Shown: piece by piece, positions 1 through 43,530 of the stretch | How the letters are laid out: every line of letters starts with the position of its first letter | Numbering within the stretch: the first letter of the stretch is position 1 | NCBI GenBank assembly: GCA_030426385.1 | Contig: JAUHYI010000015.1 | Span: forward strand, 1 to 64,000 | Source of the DNA: Phycisphaerae bacterium | Lineage (GTDB): Bacteria > Planctomycetota > Phycisphaerae > Phycisphaerales > Phycisphaeraceae | DNA: 64,000 nt | Reading direction: 5' to 3' | Translations under genes and position numbers: made by a program | The notes under the pieces: generated by a model | The model's input: the letters and a program-made list of their open reading frames with translations, nothing else | Told to the model about the DNA's origin: nothing | Database searches by the model: none

Positions 1-1247
1 CTACGCAGATTTGACGCACAGGTGATGGCTTGTGCTGCTTCCCGAGCGTTGCCTAAGGCGGGCAACAGCAATGCAATGATCACGCTGATGATGGAGATCA
101 CGACCAGTAGTTCGATGAGCGTGAAACCTTTTTTGTTTGGAGCAGGGGCAGAAGCAGAAGCAGGAGTAGGAGCAGAAGCAGAAACTGAGGCCGGCGTGTT
201 GGTTGCCGTGTTCATCGTTGTCTTGTTTGCAGGGTTGGGACGCTTGCGGGCTGCACCGCATGACTCGCGAATCACCAGCGATGTCGGCAGTACAACGGTT
301 TTGGGGGGCGATGATGGATTTCGCAGGTGGTCGTCAACAAGTTCGTAGCATTTACGACCCAGCAGAGTCATGTCTTGAAACACGCAGGTCAAAGGTACAT
401 CGAGCATCGCGGCGGCTTTGCTTCCACTGAAACCGACGACTGGCACATCCACGCCAGGTTCGTATCCAAAGTCTCGAAGCCCTCGATACACCACCGAGGC
501 GATTCCATCTTCGATTAGAAACAACGCTGGTGGTGATGGTTCGGCATGGAGCATTTGCAACACGGCAGATTGTCCGCTGGCGTCGGGTAAGTAACGATAG
601 ACTGCCGGCGGGGCACTGGTTGGCGAAAATTCAGCGAGTACCGCTTCGAATGCTGAAATGCGCCGGTTCACTGTGGGTAATTCCAGAGCCGGGGCTAGAA
701 TCGCAAAACGTTCGATGCCCAGATCATGCGTCAACTGCCCCAGTTGTCGGGCTCCGTCGCTATCGTTCCAAAGCACGGCGGGCAATGGGTAGTCCATAAA
801 TTCATGGTCGGCCATGATGATCGGAATAGACGTGTCGAGATTCGCGTAGTATCCACCACTACTATCCACACTAAAAAGAATCAGAGCGTCGATATCTTCC
901 TGCAATAACCGTTCGACGATCTGGCGTTCTCGGGTGAGTTGGCCGTGTGTATTGCTGACGAACACCATGTCATCCGCCGCGGATGCGGCGCCTTCGACGC
1001 CACTGAGCAATTGCCCAAAAAATTCCAGGCTGCAGTCAGGTATGACCACGGCGATGCGTTGGCAGCGCCCATTGGTCTGTTGGCGTCGGGCATCCTCGCG
1101 GCGGCGCTGGGTGCCGTTCATGCGCGAGGCGATCGAGGTGACTCGACGGCGGGTGGCGTCGGACACGCCATAGCGATTGTTCAACGCACGTGAGACGGTC
1201 GATGGGTTGAGTCCCAGTTCTTTGGCGATTTTATTGACAGTGGTCAT
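1..1247 (-). CDS. LacI-family repressor fused to a prepilin/pseudopilin N-terminus (partial, runs off left edge)
   Basis: One open frame runs from ATG 1247 to the left edge, 415 codons without a stop. Residues 1-50 form a LacI helix-turn-helix ([21 protein letters not shown]). About 65-330 form a periplasmic-binding-protein-like sensor ending in the usual LacI tail [11 protein letters not shown]. Residues 331-373 are an Ala/Ser/Pro/Thr linker. Then comes a prepilin cleavage site, G374/F375 (KKGFTLIE), a hydrophobic helix and the typical [11 protein letters not shown] and SNLR segment of H-X9-DG pseudopilins. The only internal ATG before the pilin part (215) has no ribosome-binding site, which favours a real fusion. 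An AGGGA site at 1257-1261 supports the 1247 start. The repressor part would lie in the cytoplasm, the side where prepilin peptidase cuts. The C-terminal pilin domain is not in the window. Confidence 0.85.
142..195. repeat. Imperfect hexanucleotide repeat encoding the fusion linker
   Basis: The plus strand reads repeated GCAGAA/GCAGGA units. On the minus strand they encode the Ser-Ala-Pro linker between repressor and pilin parts. Hexamer slippage would change linker length without shifting the frame. Confidence 0.7.
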
Positions 1248-7531: not shown

Positions 7532-8668
7532 ATGGCCAGCAAAGTCAATCAACTCCGCGAAGCCCTTTCGTCCCACATTTTGGCGGGCGAATATCAGCCC
7601 GGTGATCGGCTGCCGTCCACGCGTCAGTTGGCCAGTGAGCACGAGGTGTCTGTCTTGACTGCTGGGTTGGCACTTAAAGAATTGCAGGAGCGCAGGCTCA
7701 TTGATATTCGTCGCGGTTCAGGCGCTTATGTGACTTACGATGCGTCAAAGCGCAGTGCCACCCGGAAGCTAACCATCGGCCTGGCCTATCTGGATGTCTA
7801 TCAACAGATCGGGGCTCAGTCTGGCGGCAATCACCCTGCGGTGCTTCAATGGTTGCAGGGTCTTCAAGATCATTTTGTGCTTGAAGATTTATCCACCAAA
7901 TCGATTCTCTATCGCCGCGGCGAATTGCTGATGAGCGATGCCATTGATCAGCAGTCGATCGATGGGCTTTTGGTGACTGGCCCGATTAGTGCTGAAGAGG
8001 TTGATCGCATTCGGGATCGTGGTGTGCCAGTGGTTTTGCTGCAGCACCGTGTTAAAGATCGTGAGGTGCCATCGGTCATGATCGATGGATTGGGTGGGCT
8101 GCATCGGTTGGCAGAGCGATTGCGATTGCTCGGCCATGAGCGTTTGGCCATGATCACTTATCAGGCGGGTCAGTCGTTCGATCGGCCCCGGCAGATTGCA
8201 TATGCCGCAGCCATTCGTTCGGGCGGTTTGCGGGATTTTGCGCCTGATGATCTTTATGTGGTCGACAACGAAACCACGGCACCCACGCGTGCCGCATATC
8301 GTGAACAGGCAGAGCGCGTTCTTGATGCTGAGCCGACGGCCGTGATCACTTCGGACGAAACCATGGCCAGCCATGTCATTTCCTTGTGCTATGAGCGTGG
8401 GTGGAAAATTCCGGATGACCTGTCGCTGATGACGCTTGACGACATGAGCCCCAAGAGCCATCCGATCGAGCTGACACGCACCAATAGTTTTGATGTTGTT
8501 CGTGACGCGAGCAGATTTGCTGCGGCGTTGCTGGATCGACTGATTGGTGGCGACGAGGCGGCCAAGTCTGAAGTGATAGTTGTGCCAACGACGATCGTCG
8601 AAGGTGAATCGGTAGCTCCGCCCAAGAAGCGAGCCAAGCAAAAATGGGTCGGAAAATTAGACCGTTAA
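7532..8668 (+). CDS. GntR-HTH regulator with LacI-type sugar-binding sensor domain
   Basis: A 378-residue one-component regulator. Residues 1-70 are a GntR winged helix (PGDRLPSTRQLASEH, then LIDIRRGSGAYV). About 85-350 form a LacI/periplasmic-binding-protein-like sensor (GLLVTGPI, LRLLGHERLAMI, AVITSDETMASHV, DDLSLMTLDD). This is the AraR-like architecture, where a sugar releases the repressor from DNA. A clear promoter and palindrome lie upstream, shared with the divergent SDR operon, which is its likely target. The ligand cannot be read from sequence. Confidence 0.85.
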   Translation: MASKVNQLREALSSHILAGEYQPGDRLPSTRQLASEHEVSVLTAGLALKELQERRLIDIRRGSGAYVTYDASKRSATRKLTIGLAYLDVYQQIGAQSGGNHPAVLQWLQGLQDHFVLEDLSTKSILYRRGELLMSDAIDQQSIDGLLVTGPISAEEVDRIRDRGVPVVLLQHRVKDREVPSVMIDGLGGLHRLAERLRLLGHERLAMITYQAGQSFDRPRQIAYAAAIRSGGLRDFAPDDLYVVDNETTAPTRAAYREQAERVLDAEPTAVITSDETMASHVISLCYERGWKIPDDLSLMTLDDMSPKSHPIELTRTNSFDVVRDASRFAAALLDRLIGGDEAAKSEVIVVPTTIVEGESVAPPKKRAKQKWVGKLDR

Positions 8669-8736: not shown

Positions 8737-10014
8737 ATGCAAAAGATTACATGGTTAATGGTGTTGGCAGGTAGCATCGTCATGTCTGTGTCGAGTCATT
8801 CGTCAGCACGAACAATACCGGGTGGTGCTGTTGAGCAGATCGAAGATTTGTCCGTACATACGGCCGTGGGGACGAGTGATGGAGCGAATTTTCAAAGCTT
8901 GGGAAAGAGTTATGACGGCGGTGATGGTGTGCTTCTCATGAAATGGGATGTCACAGGATTCCCCTCGCCACTGGCAGGCGTGGTCAGCGACTTTGAACGA
9001 TTAAACGATGGTGATGGCTCGTTCACGATTCATCAAATGTTTACCAACTGGAACGAAAGCACGGACTATGGCACCACGTTGCCAGTCGCTGGTGTCGATT
9101 ACCAGTCAGCGCCGATCGCGTCGATTGGTTTTAACGATGGCAAAAATATTGACAAGGCCGACCTGAGCAAGCTGTTCCAATATTGGCAAGCCAATCCGAG
9201 CAACAATCAGGGTGTGGTTCTCGTGCCTCGTGGGCAAATCAACAGTGCGTATCCCAACAGTGCGGGTACAGCGGCGACCGGCACGTTTAACAATCAGATC
9301 ACGTTCGCATCGCGTACTCGTGTGGCTGGTATCGACAGCAATGATTTATGGGTTGTGCCAACCGCTGGTGCATCGACGCAACAGACTAACGTGCTCAAGC
9401 CGATGGCCGACACGAGTATCATTGAAAATCTGCCGCATAATGTGCTCTATCACAATCTCGCTACCACAGGCATGTTCGGTAAAACCGGTGAGCGACAGGT
9501 TCCGTTGATGAAATTCGGATTCGGCGAGTTGATGCTTGAGAACACCGTGACTGCCGTTGACAGTGCGCAGTTTGAGGTTCATATCACCAGTCCCACCGCA
9601 CCAGAGATCACCTTCGGCGTACATAAAATGCTGTCCGATTGGGATGAAGCGACGGTCACATGGGCGCAATTCGGTGGCTCGGGACCGCAAGCGGGCGTGG
9701 ACTATGAATCAGTCGCGGCAGCCATCGGGACACTCGGTGGTGGGGCGGGTATTGATACCCTTGATCTGACTGATCTGGTCAATGATTGGCTTGCTAATCC
9801 AGGAACAGACTTCGGGTTTATCCTCGTGCCTATCACGCAAGTTGACGTCAGTGACAATATCGCCCTAATCACCAGTGAACGCGTTCTTGGTGCATTGGAT
9901 GGAGACGACACGCGCTTGATCGTGACCACGAGTATTCCTGAGCCGGCGACATTTGCGTTTCTAGGTCTGAGTGCTGCCTCACTGCTGTTGCGACGTTCAA
10001 CGCGTGTGGCCTGA
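8737..10014 (+). CDS. PEP-CTERM protein with two DNRLRE-type domains
   Basis: A 425-residue exported protein. It has a signal peptide (residues 1-25, ending SSARTIP) and a C-terminal PEP-CTERM sorting signal (IPEPATFAFLGLSAASLLLRR), processed by an exosortase encoded elsewhere. Between them lie two related units of about 190 residues (VHTAVGTSDG...VVLVPRG and ADTSIIENLP...FILVPIT). They share L-x-K-W/F, H-x-M-x-x-x-W-x-E and GVDY features, as in DNRLRE/CBM96-type domains. A perfect AGGAGG (8725-8730) precedes ATG. A surface-displayed, possibly carbohydrate-binding role is likely. Confidence 0.8.
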   Translation: MQKITWLMVLAGSIVMSVSSHSSARTIPGGAVEQIEDLSVHTAVGTSDGANFQSLGKSYDGGDGVLLMKWDVTGFPSPLAGVVSDFERLNDGDGSFTIHQMFTNWNESTDYGTTLPVAGVDYQSAPIASIGFNDGKNIDKADLSKLFQYWQANPSNNQGVVLVPRGQINSAYPNSAGTAATGTFNNQITFASRTRVAGIDSNDLWVVPTAGASTQQTNVLKPMADTSIIENLPHNVLYHNLATTGMFGKTGERQVPLMKFGFGELMLENTVTAVDSAQFEVHITSPTAPEITFGVHKMLSDWDEATVTWAQFGGSGPQAGVDYESVAAAIGTLGGGAGIDTLDLTDLVNDWLANPGTDFGFILVPITQVDVSDNIALITSERVLGALDGDDTRLIVTTSIPEPATFAFLGLSAASLLLRRSTRVA

Positions 10015-10105: not shown

Positions 10106-10915
10106 ATGCGACCGCCTACATTGATCAGAGGTTTCACGCTAATTGAGTTGCTGGTTGTCATAAGCATCATAGCTATGTTGATCTCTATTCTGCTGCCTTC
10201 GCTTCGTAAAGCGCGAGAGGTTGCGTATGCGGCGGAATGTTTATCAAACCTCCGCCAGATCAGTATTGCATTTAGTACGTATGCTGCTGATGAAGGCGAT
10301 TACATGATTTCAGGATTCAAGTATCAGCCTTACTCGCCGGTGCCGATCCCCGGTTATGGATATCGCACGACGAGCGGCATGGATTACATGGCCTGGTATC
10401 ACGTGTTGGGTCCGAGGATGGGTGCGGAAAACATAGCTGGCGATCTGGGTGCCAAGATGACGCGGTGTCCGATGACCGCAGAAATACTCGGCACTGGTCA
10501 ACCGTTTCCAGAAGGCAACAGTTATGGCTACAACTTTCAGATGAAAAGTGGATTCAGCGCGGACGAGCTGACCGATGGTCATCCAATCTTTCGCATCGAA
10601 ACCATACCACAGCCAACCGCCACGATCATGATTGCGGATGCAGGACGTATCAGTAATACGCAATACCTGGGACTTGCTCCAGAGCAATGGGCGCCAATGT
10701 GGGATAACCCCGGATTTGGCCTGATGAATTTTCCTGAGGGTGAATCATGGTTGATGTACCCCGGCGGTCCGGAGCCCGGTCGGCCCGTGCCTTTGGCGCG
10801 GCACAACGGTGCGGTCGGCACGCAGTTTGTCGATGGCCACGCCTCGCTCATGCCGGTGCGCGATTTGATCGAGCCGAGTCGAGGTGATGGTGATTGTCTG
10901 TACGACATGCAGTGA
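10106..10915 (+). CDS. H-X9-DG-type pseudopilin
   Basis: A 269-residue type IV pilin-like protein. The leader MRPPTLIRG is followed by the cleavage motif [14 protein letters not shown], a hydrophobic helix, then LPSLRKARE and SNLRQI. The C-terminal [13 protein letters not shown] fits the H-X9-DG motif of planctomycete and lentisphaeral pseudopilins. It would be cut by prepilin peptidase and sit in the inner membrane with its body in the periplasm. GAGG at 10094-10097 supports the start. It lies inside the glycan locus rather than with the type II secretion operon. Confidence 0.85.
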
Positions 10916-23128: not shown

Positions 23129-23388
23129 TCGGGCTGTTATGTATCGTTTTAAGAAATTTCTCTCTTGTGTTTTGCTAGGTGGCCTGATTTGGCGCCAGCA
23201 AAACGTTCCTTGAGGCGCGGGTAAAATACAGAGTAAAACAGGGGCTAAAAAGTTAGCGTTTTGAGTAGATTTGGGTTAAATTACAGAACACGAATCGGTT
23301 TCATGGCATCTAATCAGATGTGGCCTTGGTTCTATTGATTGCGTTTTCGCGGGTTTAAAAACTGTTTGGTGTGAGGTTGGCGACCACA

Positions 23389-25083
23389 ATGGCAAAACAG
23401 TCACGTCGACTTGGCGATATTCTGGTGGAGTGCCAGCGACTTAGCGAGCCGCAGTTGTCGGCTGCTTTAAAAGTGCAGGAAGCGCAAGGGGGGCGACTGG
23501 GTGAAATTTTGTGTCAGATGGGGTGTGTGGAGCGGGGCACAATTCGACAGACGCTGGCGGAGCAGCATGAAATCGAAACGGTTGATCCATTGGTTCAACA
23601 ACCTGCGCCTGATGCATTGGCGCTGGTGAGTGCGGACGTGGCGAGTAAATACCAGGTGTTGCCGATGTCGGTCGCGGAAGGTGTGATGGTATTGGCCATG
23701 GCTGATCCATTTGATCGCGAAGCGTTGGATGTGGTACGCATGTTTACCGGGTTGCGTGTGGATCGTCGCTATTGCGAAGGCCAGACTTTGGCCGATGCGT
23801 TGGCAGAATATTATGGATCGAATGTGGCACGGATGATTGCGACGCTGGGCCATGACGACATGGGCAGCGAGCAAACGGAAGTGGCTGATTTGGCGTCGCA
23901 TCTGCAGGCGTTAGCGCGTGAGCCAACGGTCGTAAACCTGGTGAATTTGATTATTCACGAGGCGATCGAAGCGCAAGCCAGTGATATTCATGTTGAGCCG
24001 TTTGAGAAGGTATTGAAAGTGAAATACCGGATCGATGGGATCCTGCATGAAATGACACCGCCGCCCAAGCCATTGCAATCAGCGATCATTTCCCGATTAA
24101 AAGTTATGGGTGGGATGAACATTGCTGAACGCTATGTTCCGCAAGATGGTCATATAGATTTCAACACACCGCGTGGCAAGGTAGACATTCGTGTGGCCAC
24201 GGTGCCGACCGTGTTCGGAGAAAGTATCGTGTTGCGAATTCTGGATCGCACAGCATCGCTGTTTGATCTGGATCATCTGGGGCTGGGAGCGAACGAATTA
24301 AAAACGTATCGGAATCTGTTGCATCAGCCTCATGGCGTAGTGTTGGTGACTGGCCCGACAGGTAGCGGTAAATCGACGACGTTGTATGGATCGTTGATGC
24401 ATATTTATTCGCCTCACCTGAAAATTCTCACGATTGAAGATCCCGTTGAATACCAGTTGGAAGGCGTGAATCAGATTCCCGTGAATCCGAAGCGTGGGGT
24501 GACATTCGCGGATGGATTACGTGCGATATTGCGACAGGACCCGGACGTGATCATGGTGGGTGAAATTCGCGATCAGGAGACGGCGGATATTGCGATTCGT
24601 GCGGCGCTCACGGGCCACATGGTGTTTTCGACGTTGCATACCAATGATGCTGCGGGTGCGATCACGCGGTTGGTTGATATGGATGTGGAGCCGTTTTTGT
24701 TGGCATCCTCGTTGCGGGCGGTGTTGGCACAACGTCTGGTGCGGAAAATTTGCGAACATTGTAAGTGTGCGGTTGAGCCCAGTGCGTCAATGTTGGAACG
24801 TTTGGGGCATCGGCCAAACGGCTACCATGGCGATCAGGTTTTTTATGCGGGAACAGGTTGCCGGGAATGTCGGCAGACGGGGTACAATGGCCGGCTGGGT
24901 ATCTTTGAATTGTTGGTGGTGAATGACAAGGTAAGTGAAGCGATTGCCGAGCGAGCGTCAGCGGTACAGATGTCAGCGTTGATGCCGACCGATCATGTGT
25001 CGATGGCCGAGGATGGGTATCAGAAAGCATTGCGGGGACTGACGACATTAGAAGAAGTGTTTCGCGTAACTCAGGAAAACTGA
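23389..25083 (+). CDS. gspE: Type II secretion ATPase GspE
   Basis: The motor ATPase of the type II secretion system, cytoplasmic. The N-terminal GspE/PilB domain (RRLGDILVECQRLSEPQL) is present, then ASDIHVEPFEK, Walker A GPTGSGKST near residue 322, and Asp-box/Walker B DPDVIMVGEIRD. The His box is VFSTLHTND. The C-terminal four-Cys zinc site (CEHCKC...CREC) distinguishes GspE/PilB from retraction ATPases. ATG 23389 (MAKQSRRLG) is preferred over 23371 because the domain begins there. It opens an operon that runs through GspD. Confidence 0.93.
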   Translation: MAKQSRRLGDILVECQRLSEPQLSAALKVQEAQGGRLGEILCQMGCVERGTIRQTLAEQHEIETVDPLVQQPAPDALALVSADVASKYQVLPMSVAEGVMVLAMADPFDREALDVVRMFTGLRVDRRYCEGQTLADALAEYYGSNVARMIATLGHDDMGSEQTEVADLASHLQALAREPTVVNLVNLIIHEAIEAQASDIHVEPFEKVLKVKYRIDGILHEMTPPPKPLQSAIISRLKVMGGMNIAERYVPQDGHIDFNTPRGKVDIRVATVPTVFGESIVLRILDRTASLFDLDHLGLGANELKTYRNLLHQPHGVVLVTGPTGSGKSTTLYGSLMHIYSPHLKILTIEDPVEYQLEGVNQIPVNPKRGVTFADGLRAILRQDPDVIMVGEIRDQETADIAIRAALTGHMVFSTLHTNDAAGAITRLVDMDVEPFLLASSLRAVLAQRLVRKICEHCKCAVEPSASMLERLGHRPNGYHGDQVFYAGTGCRECRQTGYNGRLGIFELLVVNDKVSEAIAERASAVQMSALMPTDHVSMAEDGYQKALRGLTTLEEVFRVTQEN

Positions 25084-25100
25084 TTTTTTGCCGGGGCTAT

Positions 25101-26354
25101 TTGTTGCCTGATTTTTCGTACAAAGCGATGACGCAGCAGGGCCAACCAGTGGCAGGCGTCGTCACTGCGCCGGATCGATTGCAAGCGATTCAAATGTTGA
25201 CGCATCGCGGAACGTTTGTGACTGATATTCATGCGTGTGATAACGACGGTAGCCAACGCAACGATGGTGTTGCTGGGCAAGCGGGTGGGGATATAGATTT
25301 CTCGATGTTGAAATTTCGTGGTGGGATGTCGGGTCGCCATCGCGTATCAGTATTTCGTCAATTGGCTGTGGCATTGCAGGCCGGATTACCGTTGCTCAAT
25401 GCACTGGAAATTGTCAGAGACCAGGGCGACAGTCCAGCGGTGGAGCGGGTGTTGGATGACTTGATCAAGCGAGTCCACGGTGGCGAGCCGTTGTCGTCAG
25501 CGATGGAACAGCACCGTCGGGAATTTACATTGATGCAGGTAAGTATGGTCCGCGCAGGCGAGACGGCAGGCGTGCTGGATCATGTGATGCAATCCTTGGC
25601 AGAGTTTGCCGAACGTGACCAGGCCGTTCGTGAAAAGCTGCGGTCGGCAGCGCTCTATCCCATGATGGTGATGGGGTTAGGTGTGATATCGATCGTGGTG
25701 ATATTGACGTTTATTTTGCCGCGAATCATGGCCACGGTGACGACGACGGTAGAAGCGTTACCGATGCCGACACGTGTGTTGTTAGCGATGAGTGAGGCGT
25801 TTAAATCACCGATTGGTTGGGCGATGATGTTGGGAGTGGTCGGCGGATTGGGTTGGTTTTGGTATTGGAAGCGAACGACAGAAGGGCGGTTGTTTGTCGA
25901 TGGGGTGAAATTGCGCTTGCCGATCATTGGAACCGCGGTGACGCGCGTGGCGGTGGCACGTTTTGCGCGGACGCTTGGGACGCTCAGCGCAGCTGGCATA
26001 CAAGTGGTTGAAGCCATGCGGATCGTGCGCGATACATTGGGGAATGAAGTTTTGGGTCGTGAGATTGATCAGGCAGCCGATGAGATTTTGCGAGGCCAGT
26101 CGATCGCAGATCCCTTGCGAGCGAGCGGTCGCTTTCCAGAATTACTGATCCAGGTGATCGCGATGGGGGAGCGGACGGGAAAGCTTGACACGTTGTTAAC
26201 GCAGACCGCTGACACGTATGAGCGAGAAACGGAAGTCGCTTTGGAACGTGTGATGTCGGTGATACCGGTGTTGTTCATTCTGGTGTTGGCGCTGTTCGTG
26301 GCATTTGTTCTGGCCGCAGCATTGTTGCCAGTGATGACGATGGAGTTGAGTTAG
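25101..26354 (+). CDS. gspF: Type II secretion inner-membrane protein GspF
   Basis: A 417-residue platform protein with two GspF/PilC domains (VFRQLAVALQAGLPLLNAL; VARFARTLGTLSAAGIQVVEAM) and three membrane helices (near 200, 250 and 395). The frame has no ATG or GTG near the conserved N-terminus PDFSYKAMTQQG, so translation appears to begin at TTG 25101 or 25104. It follows GspE by 17 bp. Confidence 0.93.
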   Translation: MLPDFSYKAMTQQGQPVAGVVTAPDRLQAIQMLTHRGTFVTDIHACDNDGSQRNDGVAGQAGGDIDFSMLKFRGGMSGRHRVSVFRQLAVALQAGLPLLNALEIVRDQGDSPAVERVLDDLIKRVHGGEPLSSAMEQHRREFTLMQVSMVRAGETAGVLDHVMQSLAEFAERDQAVREKLRSAALYPMMVMGLGVISIVVILTFILPRIMATVTTTVEALPMPTRVLLAMSEAFKSPIGWAMMLGVVGGLGWFWYWKRTTEGRLFVDGVKLRLPIIGTAVTRVAVARFARTLGTLSAAGIQVVEAMRIVRDTLGNEVLGREIDQAADEILRGQSIADPLRASGRFPELLIQVIAMGERTGKLDTLLTQTADTYERETEVALERVMSVIPVLFILVLALFVAFVLAAALLPVMTMELS

Positions 26355-26438
26355 TTTGTGAGTTCGTGAGTGGAGAATGAGATGTGTCGTGTTGCGATGT
26401 GTTTTGGGTGACCTATTTCTATTTATGGAGTGATTGGC

Positions 26439-26885
26439 GTGTCTAAGAAAACGAATCAAAAGCAATGGACGCGTTACAAGCGTCGCAGTGGTTTTACGTT
26501 GGTGGAAATTATGGTGGTTGTGATAGTGATCGGCGTATTGGCGGCGTTGATCGTGCCGACATTTTTAGGACGAGCACAAAAAGCAAAACGCTCGGTGGCA
26601 AAGCAAAAAATTGGAACGATCGAAAGTGCCATCAACCTGTTTCAACAGGATTACAGTCGGTTTCCCGACACGCTTGAAGAGTTGGTGAGTAAGCCCGCGG
26701 ATGTGGCGGATGATGATTGGTTGCCGCCGTCCATGAAGCCGAAGGATTTGAAGGACCCATGGGGTAATGCGTTTGTATATCGATACCCCGGCGAGCACTG
26801 GGCGTTTGATCTTTTGAGTCTGGGGGCAGATGGACAAGAGGGAGGTTCGGGAGAGAACGCGGACGTAACGAATTGGGGAGATTGA
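26439..26885 (+). CDS. gspG: Major pseudopilin GspG
   Basis: A 148-residue major pseudopilin. A charged leader (SKKTNQKQWTRYKRRSG) precedes F/TLVEIMVVVIVIG. The C-terminal part has the GspG signature DPWGNAFVYRYPG and an acidic end (DLLSLGADGQEGG...NWGD) that fits the calcium loop. GTG 26439 is chosen because GGAG lies eight bases upstream; GTG 26430 is also in frame. It would assemble the periplasmic pseudopilus. Confidence 0.92.
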   Translation: MSKKTNQKQWTRYKRRSGFTLVEIMVVVIVIGVLAALIVPTFLGRAQKAKRSVAKQKIGTIESAINLFQQDYSRFPDTLEELVSKPADVADDDWLPPSMKPKDLKDPWGNAFVYRYPGEHWAFDLLSLGADGQEGGSGENADVTNWGD

Positions 26886-26944
26886 GTAGGCGATATCACG
26901 TGACGGGTAACGGATTGATCGTGGGTTAAGTGTTTGGGGTTTTT

Positions 26945-27601
26945 ATGATTTTGAAACGGGGCACATTAAAAAATGGGGAGCATGAGGTGAATCGTGATTG
27001 GCCGGTGCACGCTCATCGACGTGTCGATCGGAAGGGGCGAAGTGGGGCGAGTGGGTTTACACTGGTGGAAGTGATGGTTTTGGTTCTGGTTTTGGGGGTG
27101 TTGAGTGCGATGATGATTCCGGAGATGGGCGCGCGTTTAACGCGTCGGCAATTGCGGGAATCGGCAGCGGGATTATTGATGGCTGCCCGACACGCGCATG
27201 ATCATGCCACGATGCAGCGAGAAATGTGTCGGGTTGTGTTGATTCAGGAAAACAACCGGTTGGGGTATCGGCTGGAAGTCGAAAGCGATGAGGAAGCGTC
27301 TGGTTTTAAAGCGATCACGTCGGGTGTGATCAAGGAAACAATGCTGCCGAAGTGGATTCGTTTTGGTGCGGTTTTGATTGATGGTGTGGACGTGCGTGGT
27401 GCTGATGTGGCTGGCGGTTTGAGCCAAGGCGATCAGGTGTTTTGTTTTTATGTGAATGGCTCATCGGATTGGGCGGTGATCCAACTGACGGACGGAAACA
27501 AGACGTTTTCATTGGTGATTGATGGGAGCACGGGGCGCGCAGAACTGGTGGGGGAAGCAGTGAATGAATTGCCCAACTTGCGGGAGGACCTGGATGCGTA
27601 A
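26945..27601 (+). CDS. gspH: Minor pseudopilin GspH
   Basis: About 218 residues. The cleavage motif GASG/FTLVEVMVLVLVLG is followed by RLTRRQLRESAAGLLMAARHAHDHA, typical of GspH. The start is uncertain: ATG 26945, or GTG 26987, which has GGGGAG six bases upstream and gives a shorter charged leader. The stop overlaps the GspI start (ATGCGTAA). Confidence 0.85.
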   Translation: MILKRGTLKNGEHEVNRDWPVHAHRRVDRKGRSGASGFTLVEVMVLVLVLGVLSAMMIPEMGARLTRRQLRESAAGLLMAARHAHDHATMQREMCRVVLIQENNRLGYRLEVESDEEASGFKAITSGVIKETMLPKWIRFGAVLIDGVDVRGADVAGGLSQGDQVFCFYVNGSSDWAVIQLTDGNKTFSLVIDGSTGRAELVGEAVNELPNLREDLDA

Positions 27602-28052
27602 GTTTGTATTGAATCGCAGGGGGCAGCGTGACGTGTCGGCATGTGGTGGATTTACGGTCATCGAATGTCTGGTGGCCGGGATGGTGTTGGCGATATTCGG
27701 ATCACTGATTGCGATGACAGTAGGCCAATCGGTCTCGGCGAGCGAAGCGATGCTTGATCGTCAACAAGCGGCGCTTTGGCTGGATGAAGTGATGACACGC
27801 ATCGATATGATTGGCCCTGGGCGCCTGAGTGCGGAAGGACCTGTTCAAGGTGAATTAGACGATCGGTTCAGTTGGTCGGTTGAGATTGAAGAGGAAGGAT
27901 TGAGCGCGTACCTGTATCGGGTAACGCCGACGATTCGTTGGAAAACCAGTCGTGGCGAAAAGTCGGTGGCAGGTTACACGATGTTGTATGACCCGCCGGG
28001 TTCGCGTGGCGGTTTTTTACAGTGGGATGAATTGGGGATAAGCCACGAATGA
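27594..28052 (+). CDS. gspI: Minor pseudopilin GspI
   Basis: A 152-residue pseudopilin. The leader MRKFVLNRRGQRDVSACGG precedes F/TVIECLVAGMVLAIFG, and a short body follows. ATG 27594 has GGAGG at 27583-27587 and overlaps the GspH stop, so the two are coupled. Assignment to GspI rests on order and size more than on sequence. Confidence 0.8.
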   Translation: MRKFVLNRRGQRDVSACGGFTVIECLVAGMVLAIFGSLIAMTVGQSVSASEAMLDRQQAALWLDEVMTRIDMIGPGRLSAEGPVQGELDDRFSWSVEIEEEGLSAYLYRVTPTIRWKTSRGEKSVAGYTMLYDPPGSRGGFLQWDELGISHE

Positions 28053-28174
28053 CGAATTGAATGCCTGAGGTATTGATGATTCAGAGCAGATGCATGTCGT
28101 TTGGTGTTGCCGTAATCCATCGGCGGCTCGTGCGCGCTAAACCGGTGGAGACTATAGCGCGTGGAGATATCGGC

Positions 28175-28837
28175 ATGGGATATGGGATTGTGAGAGGACG
28201 AGGGTTTACGTTGGTGGAGGCCATGGTCGCGGTCGGGTTGGTGGGAATGATTGGGGTGGCCGCGTCGGGATTGATGTTGCAGTTGAGCGAGGCCCGAGGC
28301 CGAGCGGATCGCGTGTCGAGCTATACCGCGGAAGCGAATTACGCGCTGCATGCGATGGGCATGGCCATCCGCAATTGCTATCGGCCACAGGATGAACAGG
28401 TGTCGGTGTTGTTTGAAGGGTTGGATGAAACATTAGATGGTCGGCCAGCAGACCGGTTGCGATTACAGGTGGTGAGTCACGCGGTGGTGCGAAACGGTGA
28501 GCCAGAGTCGGACGTACGGGAGATTGAGTTTAGTGTGGATTCCGTCGTGCGCGGTGAAGCGCCGATGTTGATGCGACGTATTGATCCAACATTAAATGAA
28601 TTGCCTGATGGAGGCGGTGTGGTTGATCGTGTGGCGAAGGGCGTTGTTTCGTTGGATATCGAATATTTCAATGGCGTGACATGGGAGCCTGAATGGCCTG
28701 TGATATTGGGGGCAGTTCCGGAGGCGGTGCGCATCAAGTTGGGAATTATGAAAGACAAGGATGCGGAGGTGATGAAGGTGGCGTCGTATTCGATGTTGGT
28801 GAGGACTGCGCGATTTGATAGTAAACGATCCGAGTGA
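28175..28837 (+). CDS. gspJ: Minor pseudopilin GspJ
   Basis: A 220-residue pseudopilin with leader MGYGIVRGRG and F/TLVEAMVAVGLVGM. The body has the GspJ pattern (LDIEYFNGVTWEPEWP, PEAVRIKLGI). ATG 28175 follows GGAG by eight bases; the frame is open to 28061 but the extra 38 residues are unlike a leader. Confidence 0.85.
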   Translation: MGYGIVRGRGFTLVEAMVAVGLVGMIGVAASGLMLQLSEARGRADRVSSYTAEANYALHAMGMAIRNCYRPQDEQVSVLFEGLDETLDGRPADRLRLQVVSHAVVRNGEPESDVREIEFSVDSVVRGEAPMLMRRIDPTLNELPDGGGVVDRVAKGVVSLDIEYFNGVTWEPEWPVILGAVPEAVRIKLGIMKDKDAEVMKVASYSMLVRTARFDSKRSE

Positions 28838-30159
28838 TGATTGAAACGTTTGAGATTTTTATGAGTGATGGATGCGATCAATTGAATAGCAAAGAATGCC
28901 GTGTTTGGCTCGGTTTGCGTGATCGCAAGCGTGCGGGAGCGGTGTTGGTGTTGGTGATGTGGTTGGTATTGATTGCAGGACTGATGCTTGTGGGATTGAA
29001 TCGTGTGGTGCAGGTTGGCTCGGCACGCGGGCAGAATGAGTTGGATCGTGTGCGTGCACGGTGGGTGGCGCGAGCGGGAATTGAGCAAGCGATCTATGTG
29101 TTGGCGACGGATATCACCTCGGCGGATATGTCAAGCGATTTCTGGTACGACGATCCGATGACCTTCGATCGATTTGAGTTGGCGGATGGATTTGTTTACT
29201 CGGTGGCATCGGTATCCAGAGCGTCCGGGGGGCGTGCTGGTGAAGTGCGTTATGGTCTGGATGATGAGGCGTCGCGTGTCAATGTGAATTCCGCGAGTCG
29301 CGAGGTGCTGGGACAACTCCCCGACATTCGCGAGGAACAGATCGCGTCGATGATTGATTGGCGAGATACGAACGAGGAATCGGAACCCGGCGGCGCGGAA
29401 TGGCGCTACTACAGTCAGTTGCCCTACCCGTATGAGATACGCAACGGACCGATGCAGACGGTCCGTGAGATGTTGTTGGTGAAGGGGATTGAGCCCGATG
29501 ATTTTTTTGGTGCTGAGTCTCAGGAAGTCGGAGAAAATGGAAGAGCGGGGTTGTTGGCTGATACGACGGTCTACAGTTATCAGTTGAATCAGACCATGTC
29601 CGGGCAGGAACGGGTGAATGTAAAGCAGACGAACCGAACGACGTTGCAGACGCGATTGGGCATGAGCGCGTCACTGGCAGAGCGGGTGGTTGAGCGAGCG
29701 GATGAAATTCAGACGTTGTTCGATTTGGAAGGTGAACGCGGGAACGGTCCTGCGGAAGAGGATGAGATATCGCAGATCACTTTGGAATGGCTGGCGGAAA
29801 ATTATGACGAAATAACGGTGAGCGAAGACGAGCAATTGCCCGCGCGGATCAATATCAATACGGCCAGCCGTGAAGTTTTGAAGACATTGCCAAAGATGAC
29901 TGATGAGGATGTTGATCGTCTGATTAGTGTACGGGCACAGCATGGGGGGCTGTCAACGTTTGGCATTTTAGTCAAGGAAAACGTGGTGTCGAATGAGGTT
30001 TTTCGAGCGATAGCGGAATCAATCACCTTACGCTCGAATGTGTTTCGTGTGGTGAGCTATGGGTCAACGCCGTCGGGTGTGGGACGTGTGATTGAAGCGG
30101 TGATCGATCGCGGGAGAGGGCAGATTCCGCGGGTGATGTACTGGTATGAGCGCGAATGA
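28837..30159 (+). CDS. gspK: Type II secretion protein GspK
   Basis: About 440 residues, the large minor pseudopilin at the tip. After a charged start comes a hydrophobic helix (AVLVLVMWLVLIAGLMLVGL) that ends a GspK-type leader (RKRAG). Two helix-hairpin-helix-like segments follow (VNVNSASREVLGQLP and ININTASREVLKTLP), as GspK carries. The start overlaps the GspJ stop as TGATG. Confidence 0.87.
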   Translation: MIETFEIFMSDGCDQLNSKECRVWLGLRDRKRAGAVLVLVMWLVLIAGLMLVGLNRVVQVGSARGQNELDRVRARWVARAGIEQAIYVLATDITSADMSSDFWYDDPMTFDRFELADGFVYSVASVSRASGGRAGEVRYGLDDEASRVNVNSASREVLGQLPDIREEQIASMIDWRDTNEESEPGGAEWRYYSQLPYPYEIRNGPMQTVREMLLVKGIEPDDFFGAESQEVGENGRAGLLADTTVYSYQLNQTMSGQERVNVKQTNRTTLQTRLGMSASLAERVVERADEIQTLFDLEGERGNGPAEEDEISQITLEWLAENYDEITVSEDEQLPARININTASREVLKTLPKMTDEDVDRLISVRAQHGGLSTFGILVKENVVSNEVFRAIAESITLRSNVFRVVSYGSTPSGVGRVIEAVIDRGRGQIPRVMYWYERE

Positions 30160-41855: not shown

Positions 41856-42199
41856 GAAGTGGCCCGGGCTAAGTGATTACACATATACAACAGTGGTCTT
41901 CAAGGGTGTCAAGCAAAAAATATCACGCGGGGCCGTCTTTTGTCTTTTGGAGCCTCGACTTGTGGGAAAATTATTTCGAAATAAATTGATTTAATTTTCA
42001 GGGTACGGATTCGTTATGCGTAGAAACCCTATGTAGAACATTAAACAATTTAGTATCAAATATTTGCGTGTGTTGTACGAGGCTGTGATTTTGAATTGCG
42101 TGATTGGATTACCCGGAAAACTTAATTGACGGAATTAATTTCATTCTGTTTCGTGAAATACATTTGGCGTGGAGTGGGCTTCGCTCAGAATCAATTCCC
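41856..42199. other. Intergenic region between GntR gene and truncated LacI gene
   Basis: The region is AT-rich and holds the promoter of the minus-strand operon near 41884-41912. I see no gene in it. Confidence 0.5.
41884..41912 (-). promoter_or_regulatory. Sigma70-type promoter of the GntR-ABC operon
   Basis: On the minus strand TTGACA (41907-41912) and TGTATA (41884-41889) are 17 bp apart, 29 bp upstream of the GntR start. Confidence 0.55.
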
Positions 42200-42517
42200 A
42201 TGAAAACAACCGTTGCCAGCATTGCTCGGGATGCTGGCGTTTCGATTGGGAAGGTTGCCCGAATTTCCAATGACGAACCATCGGTCAGTGAGGAGTTATG
42301 CCGACGCGTCTATTCGGTAGCAGGCAAGTTGGACTATCGCACGCTTCGTTGCCGAAGCAAGCCAATCAGTAACAGCTCTTGCTTGTCGGGCAAAAATATT
42401 GCACTGGTACTTCTTGGCATGGATCGTTCTTTAGAAACGTTGCCCGTGATCGCTTCGGCCATCCATGGCGCAGAGACGGCGTCAGTGATTCGGAGACACA
42501 TCCTTTTGATGGGATAA
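42200..42517 (+). pseudogene. Truncated LacI-family regulator
   Basis: A 105-residue remnant. The HTH is recognisable (MKTTVASIARDAGVSIGKVARISND), with odd residues where T-V-S-R-x-L is usual (K-V-A-R-I-S), and PSVSEELCRRVYSVAGKLDYR follows. The sensor starts (IALVLLGMDRSLETLP) and ends at a TAA after about 40 residues, so the ligand domain is missing. I found no continuation in another frame. Confidence 0.75.
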
Positions 42518-42846: not shown

Positions 42847-43530
42847 TCATAGCTCAGGATCAAACATGCCCCGAGTGAAGTCCGTGGCTTTGAGTGTTTG
42901 AGCGTGTCCATCGACGAACCCCGCATTGTGCCCGCCATTGTGAGCGGGAAATGTGCCCAGTAGTTCGCGGTATTCCATGTATTCTGTGGGAAAGTTATAG
43001 CCGCTGGCGTCGTAGTCGAAGACGCCGCTGCCCGGTGACGTATAGTTGGGAAATCGAGGCGCCCACCCAGCCGCGGCTCGCAGCCAAACTTCCCAGATGA
43101 CAATCGTATTTGATGTGTCCGCAATATCGTTGAGTCGTGCATAGTTCATCACGCCGTTCAGATAAAAGGACACATCGCCATACGGTGAATGGTAAAACTG
43201 CACGGAGATTTGCTCGTTATTCACCGGGCATTCAAGAATGTCGTACGACGTTAAATAGCGACTCAAACGCCCCGTCCATGTCGGTGTGTCTTTCCAATCG
43301 CCGTACGCGATATCGCCGAATGACGTGTCCTGACCGACGAAATAACCATCGCTATCACTCAGGTACAAATGGTTGGCCATCATGACGCTTCTCGTATTAG
43401 ACAGACACGAGGTGCGCACCGCTACTGCTTTGGCCTGCCCCAGTGCAGGCAACAACAAGGCGATCAATAAAGCCACGATGGAAATGACAACCAGTAATTC
43501 GATTAATGTAAATGCACGTCTGGGTGACAT
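42847..43530 (-). CDS. H-X9-DG-type pseudopilin
   Basis: A 227-residue pilin-like protein: short leader MSPRRA, then [28 protein letters not shown]. The C-terminal [13 protein letters not shown] with preceding AHNGG fits the H-X9-DG form. Ala replaces Gly at the -1 cleavage position, which prepilin peptidases tolerate less well. AAGGAG lies just before the ATG. It is downstream of and co-directional with the large protein at 43600-45450. Confidence 0.85.

Follow-up and report, generated by a model that had tools for sequence, protein, structure and literature searches.

Transmembrane transcription regulators of the ToxR/CadC type, which carry a cytoplasmic DNA-binding part, one membrane helix and an outer head in one chain, belong to a class described as widespread in one survey (PMC10269533). 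We analyzed a 64,000-nucleotide stretch from a Phycisphaerae bacterium (assembly GCA_030426385.1, contig JAUHYI010000015.1, positions 1 to 64,000 of the forward strand; the whole stretch is called the window below), whose left end holds a gene of similar layout, in which a LacI repressor is joined in frame to a type IV prepilin. Such a fusion differs from the ToxR/CadC type by its full LacI or GntR/periplasmic-binding-protein sensor and by the cleavable prepilin signal that serves as anchor. It matches the LacI and GntR/periplasmic-binding-protein sugar repressors (RbsR, CcpA, LacI, PurR) in full-length sequence and fold, but has a C-terminal linker and a prepilin in place of the stop. With the H-X9-DG prepilins and pseudopilins (N_methyl, PF07963; DUF1559/SBP_bac_10, PF07596) it shares the cleavage motif, the hydrophobic helix and the H-X9-DG end, the difference being that its leader, at ~374 residues, is a repressor in its own right. 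The terms laci and gntr are absent from the main text of the survey, passages of which name pilin as a regulated target, and our literature search, which had subscription journals mostly outside its scope, found no regulator-prepilin fusion named in the titles or abstract openings among the matches listed. What would be new here is the anchoring of a regulator by a prepilin; to call this a novel kind of signaling, release would have to be shown.

A complete repressor and a prepilin in one frame

From the sequence-only reading of the window it had been proposed that a complete LacI repressor is fused in frame, through a Ser/Ala/Pro linker, to a prepilin N terminus. We found a single stop-free frame of 415 codons with an ATG start on the minus strand, in which Pfam places a LacI helix-turn-helix, a Peripla_BP_3 domain (residues 174-330) and N_methyl (residues 371-395), all above their curated cut-offs, and both the fusion and the proposed order of its parts were upheld: the repressor is complete (residues 1-332), and the linker leads into the predicted cleavage site G374|F375. 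An N-terminal LacI helix-turn-helix followed by a periplasmic-binding-like sensor domain is the architecture of the LacI family. The NCBIfam model RbsR aligns through positions 4-328 of 331 with residues 3-330, although its cut-off is not reached, and the prepilin domain TIGR02532 is matched with 31.2 bits (cut-off 16.3). The motif itself has the features of a type IV prepilin, namely G/A|F, a glutamate at +5, preceding positive charges and about 20 hydrophobic residues after the site. The leader is not short, as 397 codons before the motif are free of stops and the nearest ATG lies 29 codons away. We consider this ~374-residue leader atypical rather than disqualifying, because prepilin leader length can vary, as described in PMC10191384.

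An AlphaFold2 model of the 415 residues (12 sequences; mean predicted local distance difference test score, pLDDT, 79.3) has a LacI-type fold, predicted with confidence over most of its length up to residue 332. The linker that follows (333-374) is disordered, and after it come helices at residues 377-398 and 402-414. In Foldseek the model matches DNA-bound CcpA and Lac repressor best, followed closely by RbsR and PurR. In the model, a DNA-binding domain and a predicted transmembrane helix (residues 377-398) thus occur in one chain, as in ToxR/CadC-like regulators.

The window gene is truncated at its 3' side, because base 1 of the window is base 1 of contig C148. Extension of the gene, which had been put forward as a check, was possible through an exact 127-bp overlap between the end of C148 and the first 127 bases of contig C88, unique in the 177-contig genome (the next best match elsewhere is 82% over 73 bases). 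An exact end overlap of 127 bases is a typical leftover of a short-read assembler with k = 127. The joined open reading frame encodes 615 amino acids from the ATG and ends in H-NDSTNVVAM-DG, the sought H-X9-DG pattern on visual inspection. Taken by itself, the C88 part matches no Pfam family at E 0.001. It appears highly improbable that the fusion is an assembly or sequencing artefact of the draft genome. The gene does terminate at a contig end, but the end overlap is confined to C148 and C88, and as far as residue 415 the open frame is independent of their join. In addition, a second fusion of the same genome is internal to a 169-kb contig, and the same architecture is found in other genomes. 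At the level of sequence, the regulator-prepilin fusion is thus confirmed as genuine and as more than a chance arrangement.

Further fusions and the regulator-pilin cassette

At least seven intact fusions were found in six genomes from three families, five of the LacI type and two of the GntR/periplasmic-binding type. Absence of a related fusion from every relative had been named as a ground for giving up the idea; fusions do occur in other genera and families. Our searches spanned 1,901 genome slots, overlapping between searches, and in the large genome sets scoring took in the best 4-11 candidates of each genome, so that further fusions may be missed. The second complete fusion of the source genome, inside the 168,664-bp contig C42, has 615 amino acids with LacI, Peripla_BP_3, N_methyl and SBP_bac_10 domains (the last with 24.5 bits, cut-off 23.3) and ends in H-EGNVNFIYA-DG, again an H-X9-DG end by eye. 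LacI-type fusions are also present in two genomes of the same family, G072 (contig C26, 611 amino acids) and G025 (contig C85, 616 amino acids, TTG start), and in G764 from another family within the class (contig C41, 576 amino acids from the first Met). The GntR-type fusion of G002 (contig C183, same family) has its 5' end at a contig edge, with the GntR domain whole, and its N_methyl match is barely above the cut-off (21.5 versus 21.2 bits); that of G622 (contig C462) comes from a family elsewhere in the phylum. The spacing of the C-terminal H-X-DG is variable among the other fusions, and the linker after the regulator domain measures 5 to 38 residues in four LacI fusions. Next to the G025 fusion (locus L100, 6260-8001) we observed a GntR-like regulator and, after it, a pilin-motif gene of its own, on the opposite strand.

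Several candidates were not counted. In G024:C352 (L135, 2324-3400) a C-terminal LacI remnant is joined to a pilin and the N terminus of the regulator is missing, and in G720:C21 (L234, 4-687) the regulator is cut by the contig end and the pilin frame stops early; being degenerate or incomplete, these may be decaying copies or draft errors. Long frames before pilin motifs in G003 (L074, L085) have no Pfam regulator domain, and those in G049, G637 and G045 have no match to the LacI profile (no Pfam scan); all of them look like frames left open by chance in GC-rich DNA. The long frames of G122:C202 and G015:C22 suggest fusions, yet both are gene pairs interrupted by stops, and G057 has a LacI gene without a pilin motif in its frame. 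Among 80 loci listed from named genomes, none of the 14 that were positive for the LacI profile is fused in frame to a pilin, GntR types possibly being missed.

The fusions stand against a background of adjacent regulator and pilin genes. In the source genome (5.2 Mb), with 58 LacI helix-turn-helix and 134 N_methyl matches, a pilin motif follows on the same strand within 1,500 nucleotides downstream of 11 of the 58 LacI genes (the two fusions included; relative frames mixed, with 5, 2 and 4 cases), and within 4,500 nucleotides downstream of 16 further ones. As controls, a same-strand pilin motif lies upstream of LacI in no case within 1,500 nucleotides and in 3 within 4,500, and one LacI gene has a downstream pilin motif on the opposite strand. 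The pilin-like repertoire is very large, both in the source genome and in G030 (7.4 Mb; 455 first-look candidates of the junction profile). Regulator-pilin pairing was seen in named loci of Planctomycetota, Armatimonadota and Hydrogenedentota; it is not limited to planctomycetes, since LacI genes lie 46-326 nucleotides upstream of pilins in Armatimonadota and Hydrogenedentota drafts (L146, L147, L163, L177). The best reading is that a cassette of regulator and pilin is common in this group and that the fusion is its one-gene, one-to-one form. The window itself contains an unfused cassette (Table 1), with a gene order similar to that of PL23b_bin.10 (L145). A separate 137-amino acid open reading frame (42104-42517, plus strand), which has a LacI helix-turn-helix and no Pfam sensor domain, is possibly a truncated regulator; a pilin-motif gene is found nearby (42847-43530, minus strand).

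We compared fused and split forms of related cassettes. One GntR cassette is a single open reading frame in G622 and has, in a different family, one TAG between regulator and pilin (G030 and G122). Both halves are homologous, the regulators being 43% identical over 354-355 columns and the pilins 36.5% over 208. A second group (support of 100 in the Shimodaira-Hasegawa-like approximate likelihood ratio test) is fused in G025 and G072 and split by stops in G122, whose regulator is 66% identical to that of G072; in PL23b_bin.10, a member of this group, the regulator is followed by a PEP-CTERM-type gene (by eye) and then the pilin. A tree of 90 regulators, made by a quick method and with many long branches, contains six of the seven fusions (G764 is absent) and needs six gains or losses of the fused state, of which at least four are forced by well-supported branches. 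A single origin of all fusions is therefore unlikely. From these comparisons we infer that fused and split genes are two states of one unit.

Proposed cutting and release weighed against stop loss and tethering

Prepilin signals insert so that the leader faces the cytoplasm, the side on which they are cut, as described in PMC10191384. The repressor would thus lie on the side where a prepilin peptidase should free it, and in this point, too, the sequence-only reading stands. Its wider interpretation, that pilin maturation and release or tethering of the repressor may be one event, is partly supported. We propose, as a reading whose truth we hold to be evenly balanced, that the repressor is an oversized prepilin leader, which is held at the membrane until the peptidase cuts and is then released to regulate. 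The first ~374 residues of one polypeptide would form a sugar-type LacI repressor with its linker, and the rest an H-X9-DG prepilin. The hydrophobic helix would insert N-in/C-out, the orientation of prepilin-family helices, so that the repressor would stay cytoplasmic at the inner membrane as the leader. The peptidase would then cut at G|F, the pilin would join the filament machinery, and the freed repressor would control local polysaccharide-use and pilin genes. Insertion, cleavage, release, ligand and targets are what we infer. The union of a complete regulator with a cleavage motif and a pilin in a single frame, its recurrence in the intact fusions and the presence of peptidase and type II secretion system (T2SS) genes all speak for this proposal. 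So do the repeated changes of state in the regulator tree, the fused and split GntR cassette, the distant start codon of G622 and the excess of pilin motifs downstream of LacI genes in the source genome. The source genome has one A24 peptidase match (contig C43), which scored 29.6 bits, above the cut-off, in one search and 23.2 bits, below it, in another. The A24_N_bact domain at its N terminus is matched strongly (E 1.1e-28), and the protein contains VIDAR and GLGD motifs, which we take to be the catalytic-type aspartate motifs.

The chief rival is a neutral or near-neutral loss of the stop in a regulator-pilin operon, through disappearance of the short gap between the two genes, with an internal pilin start or a tolerated fusion and no new regulation. 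We regard it as rather unlikely, and several observations nevertheless count for it and weigh against release by cutting. Regulator-pilin pairs are common and often closely spaced, and among the matches listed from a family search of 51 genomes, 80 of the 86 in-frame junction rows (those that start at or before profile position 30) hold at least one stop. The six stop-free rows are five intact fusions and the G024 remnant; the search sees in-frame pairs, pairs in other frames being uncounted. G024:C352 and G720:C21 look degenerate or cut, and the fused or split state varies inside one orthologous clade, where sister orthologues in different states (G122 split, G072 fused) also fit a casual loss of the stop. 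Moreover, the pilins of G072 and G122 align over their first 60 residues only, and in this group the pilin partner is not clearly conserved. On the other side, regulator, linker and pilin all stay open in seven diverged copies. We do not argue for read-through of the stops in split pairs, which are of all three kinds and often several; in the source genome the frames of the pairs are mixed.

Whether the pilin part could start internally bears directly on stop loss. The comparison set consisted of 194 other pilin motifs from the fetched loci, each preceded by a stop that could be seen. An upstream in-frame ATG is present for 184 of them, the nearest at a median of 9 codons (95th percentile 33, maximum 45). 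In the fusions, the nearest ATG lies 29 (window), 43 (C42), 12 (G072), 46 (G025), 124 (G622), 69 (G002) and 35 (G764) codons before the motif; if GTG and TTG are counted as well, the distances become 29, 18, 12, 22 (TTG), 124, 4 (GTG) and 13 codons, in the same order. As the closest ATG, GTG or TTG of G622 is 124 codons from the motif, a standard internal start near it is excluded there, and an internal start also appears unlikely in G025, where no ATG is nearer than 46 codons. A Shine-Dalgarno-like motif precedes the nearest ATG in two of the seven fusions (G002 and G764) versus 100 of the 184 other pilins, a weak difference, seven being too few. Among the points in favor of stop loss are further the ATG 12 codons before the cut site in G072, found likewise in its split sister G122, and Shine-Dalgarno-like motifs before the G764 ATG and before a GTG at 38 codons in G025; the G764 motif slightly weakens the argument from Shine-Dalgarno-like motifs, which carries little weight and leaves the odds as they were. 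Judged by their start codons, a separate pilin start is possible in the window fusion, C42, G072, G002 and G764.

The fusion could alternatively be a membrane-tethered sensor that acts uncut or is cut on a signal, its outer pilin head reporting the state of substrate or filament and its repressor working from the membrane or after regulated cutting. The domain order, with the DNA-binding part in, one helix and the head out, is that of the ToxR/CadC-like class surveyed in PMC10269533, and the long flexible linker in the model of the window copy would suit such a sensor. However, the cleavage motif is a standard prepilin site that the peptidase of the genome should cut, the split orthologues have a free regulator, and a linker as variable as that of the four LacI fusions suits no fixed signal relay; we consider tethering unlikely. 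We favor cutting and release over both tethering and stop loss, because the exchange between fused and split states argues for equivalent products.

Locus setting and possible meaning

The fusion gene is followed on C88 by an open reading frame that no Pfam family matches and by genes for a GH42 glycosidase and a PEP-CTERM protein. Genes for GH42, GH16 and PEP-CTERM proteins are found near three of the fusions examined (window/C88, C42 and G025), and Planctomycetes take up dextran, with gold-labelled dextran seen on pili-like fibres that were not shown to be made of these pilins, as reported in PMC5394234. These neighbors, together with dextran uptake, suggest that polysaccharide loci are the setting of the fusions. 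The window also contains a T2SS cluster (Table 1).

Table 1. Positions in the window of the fusion gene, the unfused cassette and the secretion genes
Feature	Position	Strand	Basis or remark
Regulator-prepilin fusion gene, 5' 415 codons	3..1247	-	ATG 1245-1247; continues on contig C88, total 615 amino acids
LacI helix-turn-helix, residues 6-44	1116..1232	-	Pfam; model helices at residues 4-11 and 15-22
Periplasmic-binding-protein-like sensor domain, residues 64-330	258..1058	-	Pfam, AlphaFold2 model, Foldseek
Ser/Ala/Pro linker, residues 331-374, positively charged KKG end	126..257	-	Sequence; pLDDT <50 over 333-339 and 341-374
Predicted prepilin peptidase cleavage site G374|F375, E at +5	123..128	-	Sequence, Pfam, NCBIfam
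Hydrophobic prepilin helix, residues 375-398	54..125	-	N_methyl (Pfam); model helix 377-398
GntR/periplasmic-binding regulator	7532-8668	+	First gene of unfused cassette
PEP-CTERM-type protein	8737-10014	+	Middle gene of unfused cassette; by eye, no Pfam match
Pilin-motif protein	10106-10915	+	Third gene of unfused cassette
T2SS cluster	23371..30159	+	E, F, G, J, K present; could assemble pseudopilins
T2SS E	23371	+	
T2SS F	25101	+	
T2SS G	26430	+	
Weak pilin-motif protein	26930	+	Inside T2SS cluster
Open reading frame without Pfam match	27564	+	Inside T2SS cluster
T2SS J	28061	+	28.3 bits, cut-off 28
T2SS K	28834	+	

Were the peptidase to release the repressor, a membrane protein would give up its DNA-binding part, which recalls, by analogy, the Notch-presenilin system with its GXGD protease. 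Prepilin peptidases differ in cutting outside the membrane and are generally regarded as constitutive, and the likeness would be one of analogy, not of system homology. More tentatively, and with some doubt, we envisage a Notch-like bacterial circuit in which each matured pilin frees one repressor, and transcription of the pilus's own polysaccharide locus would thereby keep count of how much is produced. If this circuit were real, the split cassettes would be its diffusible version.

The prepilin peptidase is usually seen as a housekeeping enzyme of maturation, and the leader as a piece to be discarded. In the fusions, which come from several lineages, an entire transcription factor forms the predicted leader. 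If the repressor is released intact, prepilin processing becomes a signaling step, which would suggest why the source genome has as many as 134 pilin-motif matches, some of them beside sugar regulators, as every such pair could be a unit dedicated to sensing and capturing one polysaccharide. Through their pairing with regulators, the role of the H-X9-DG pilins becomes testable.
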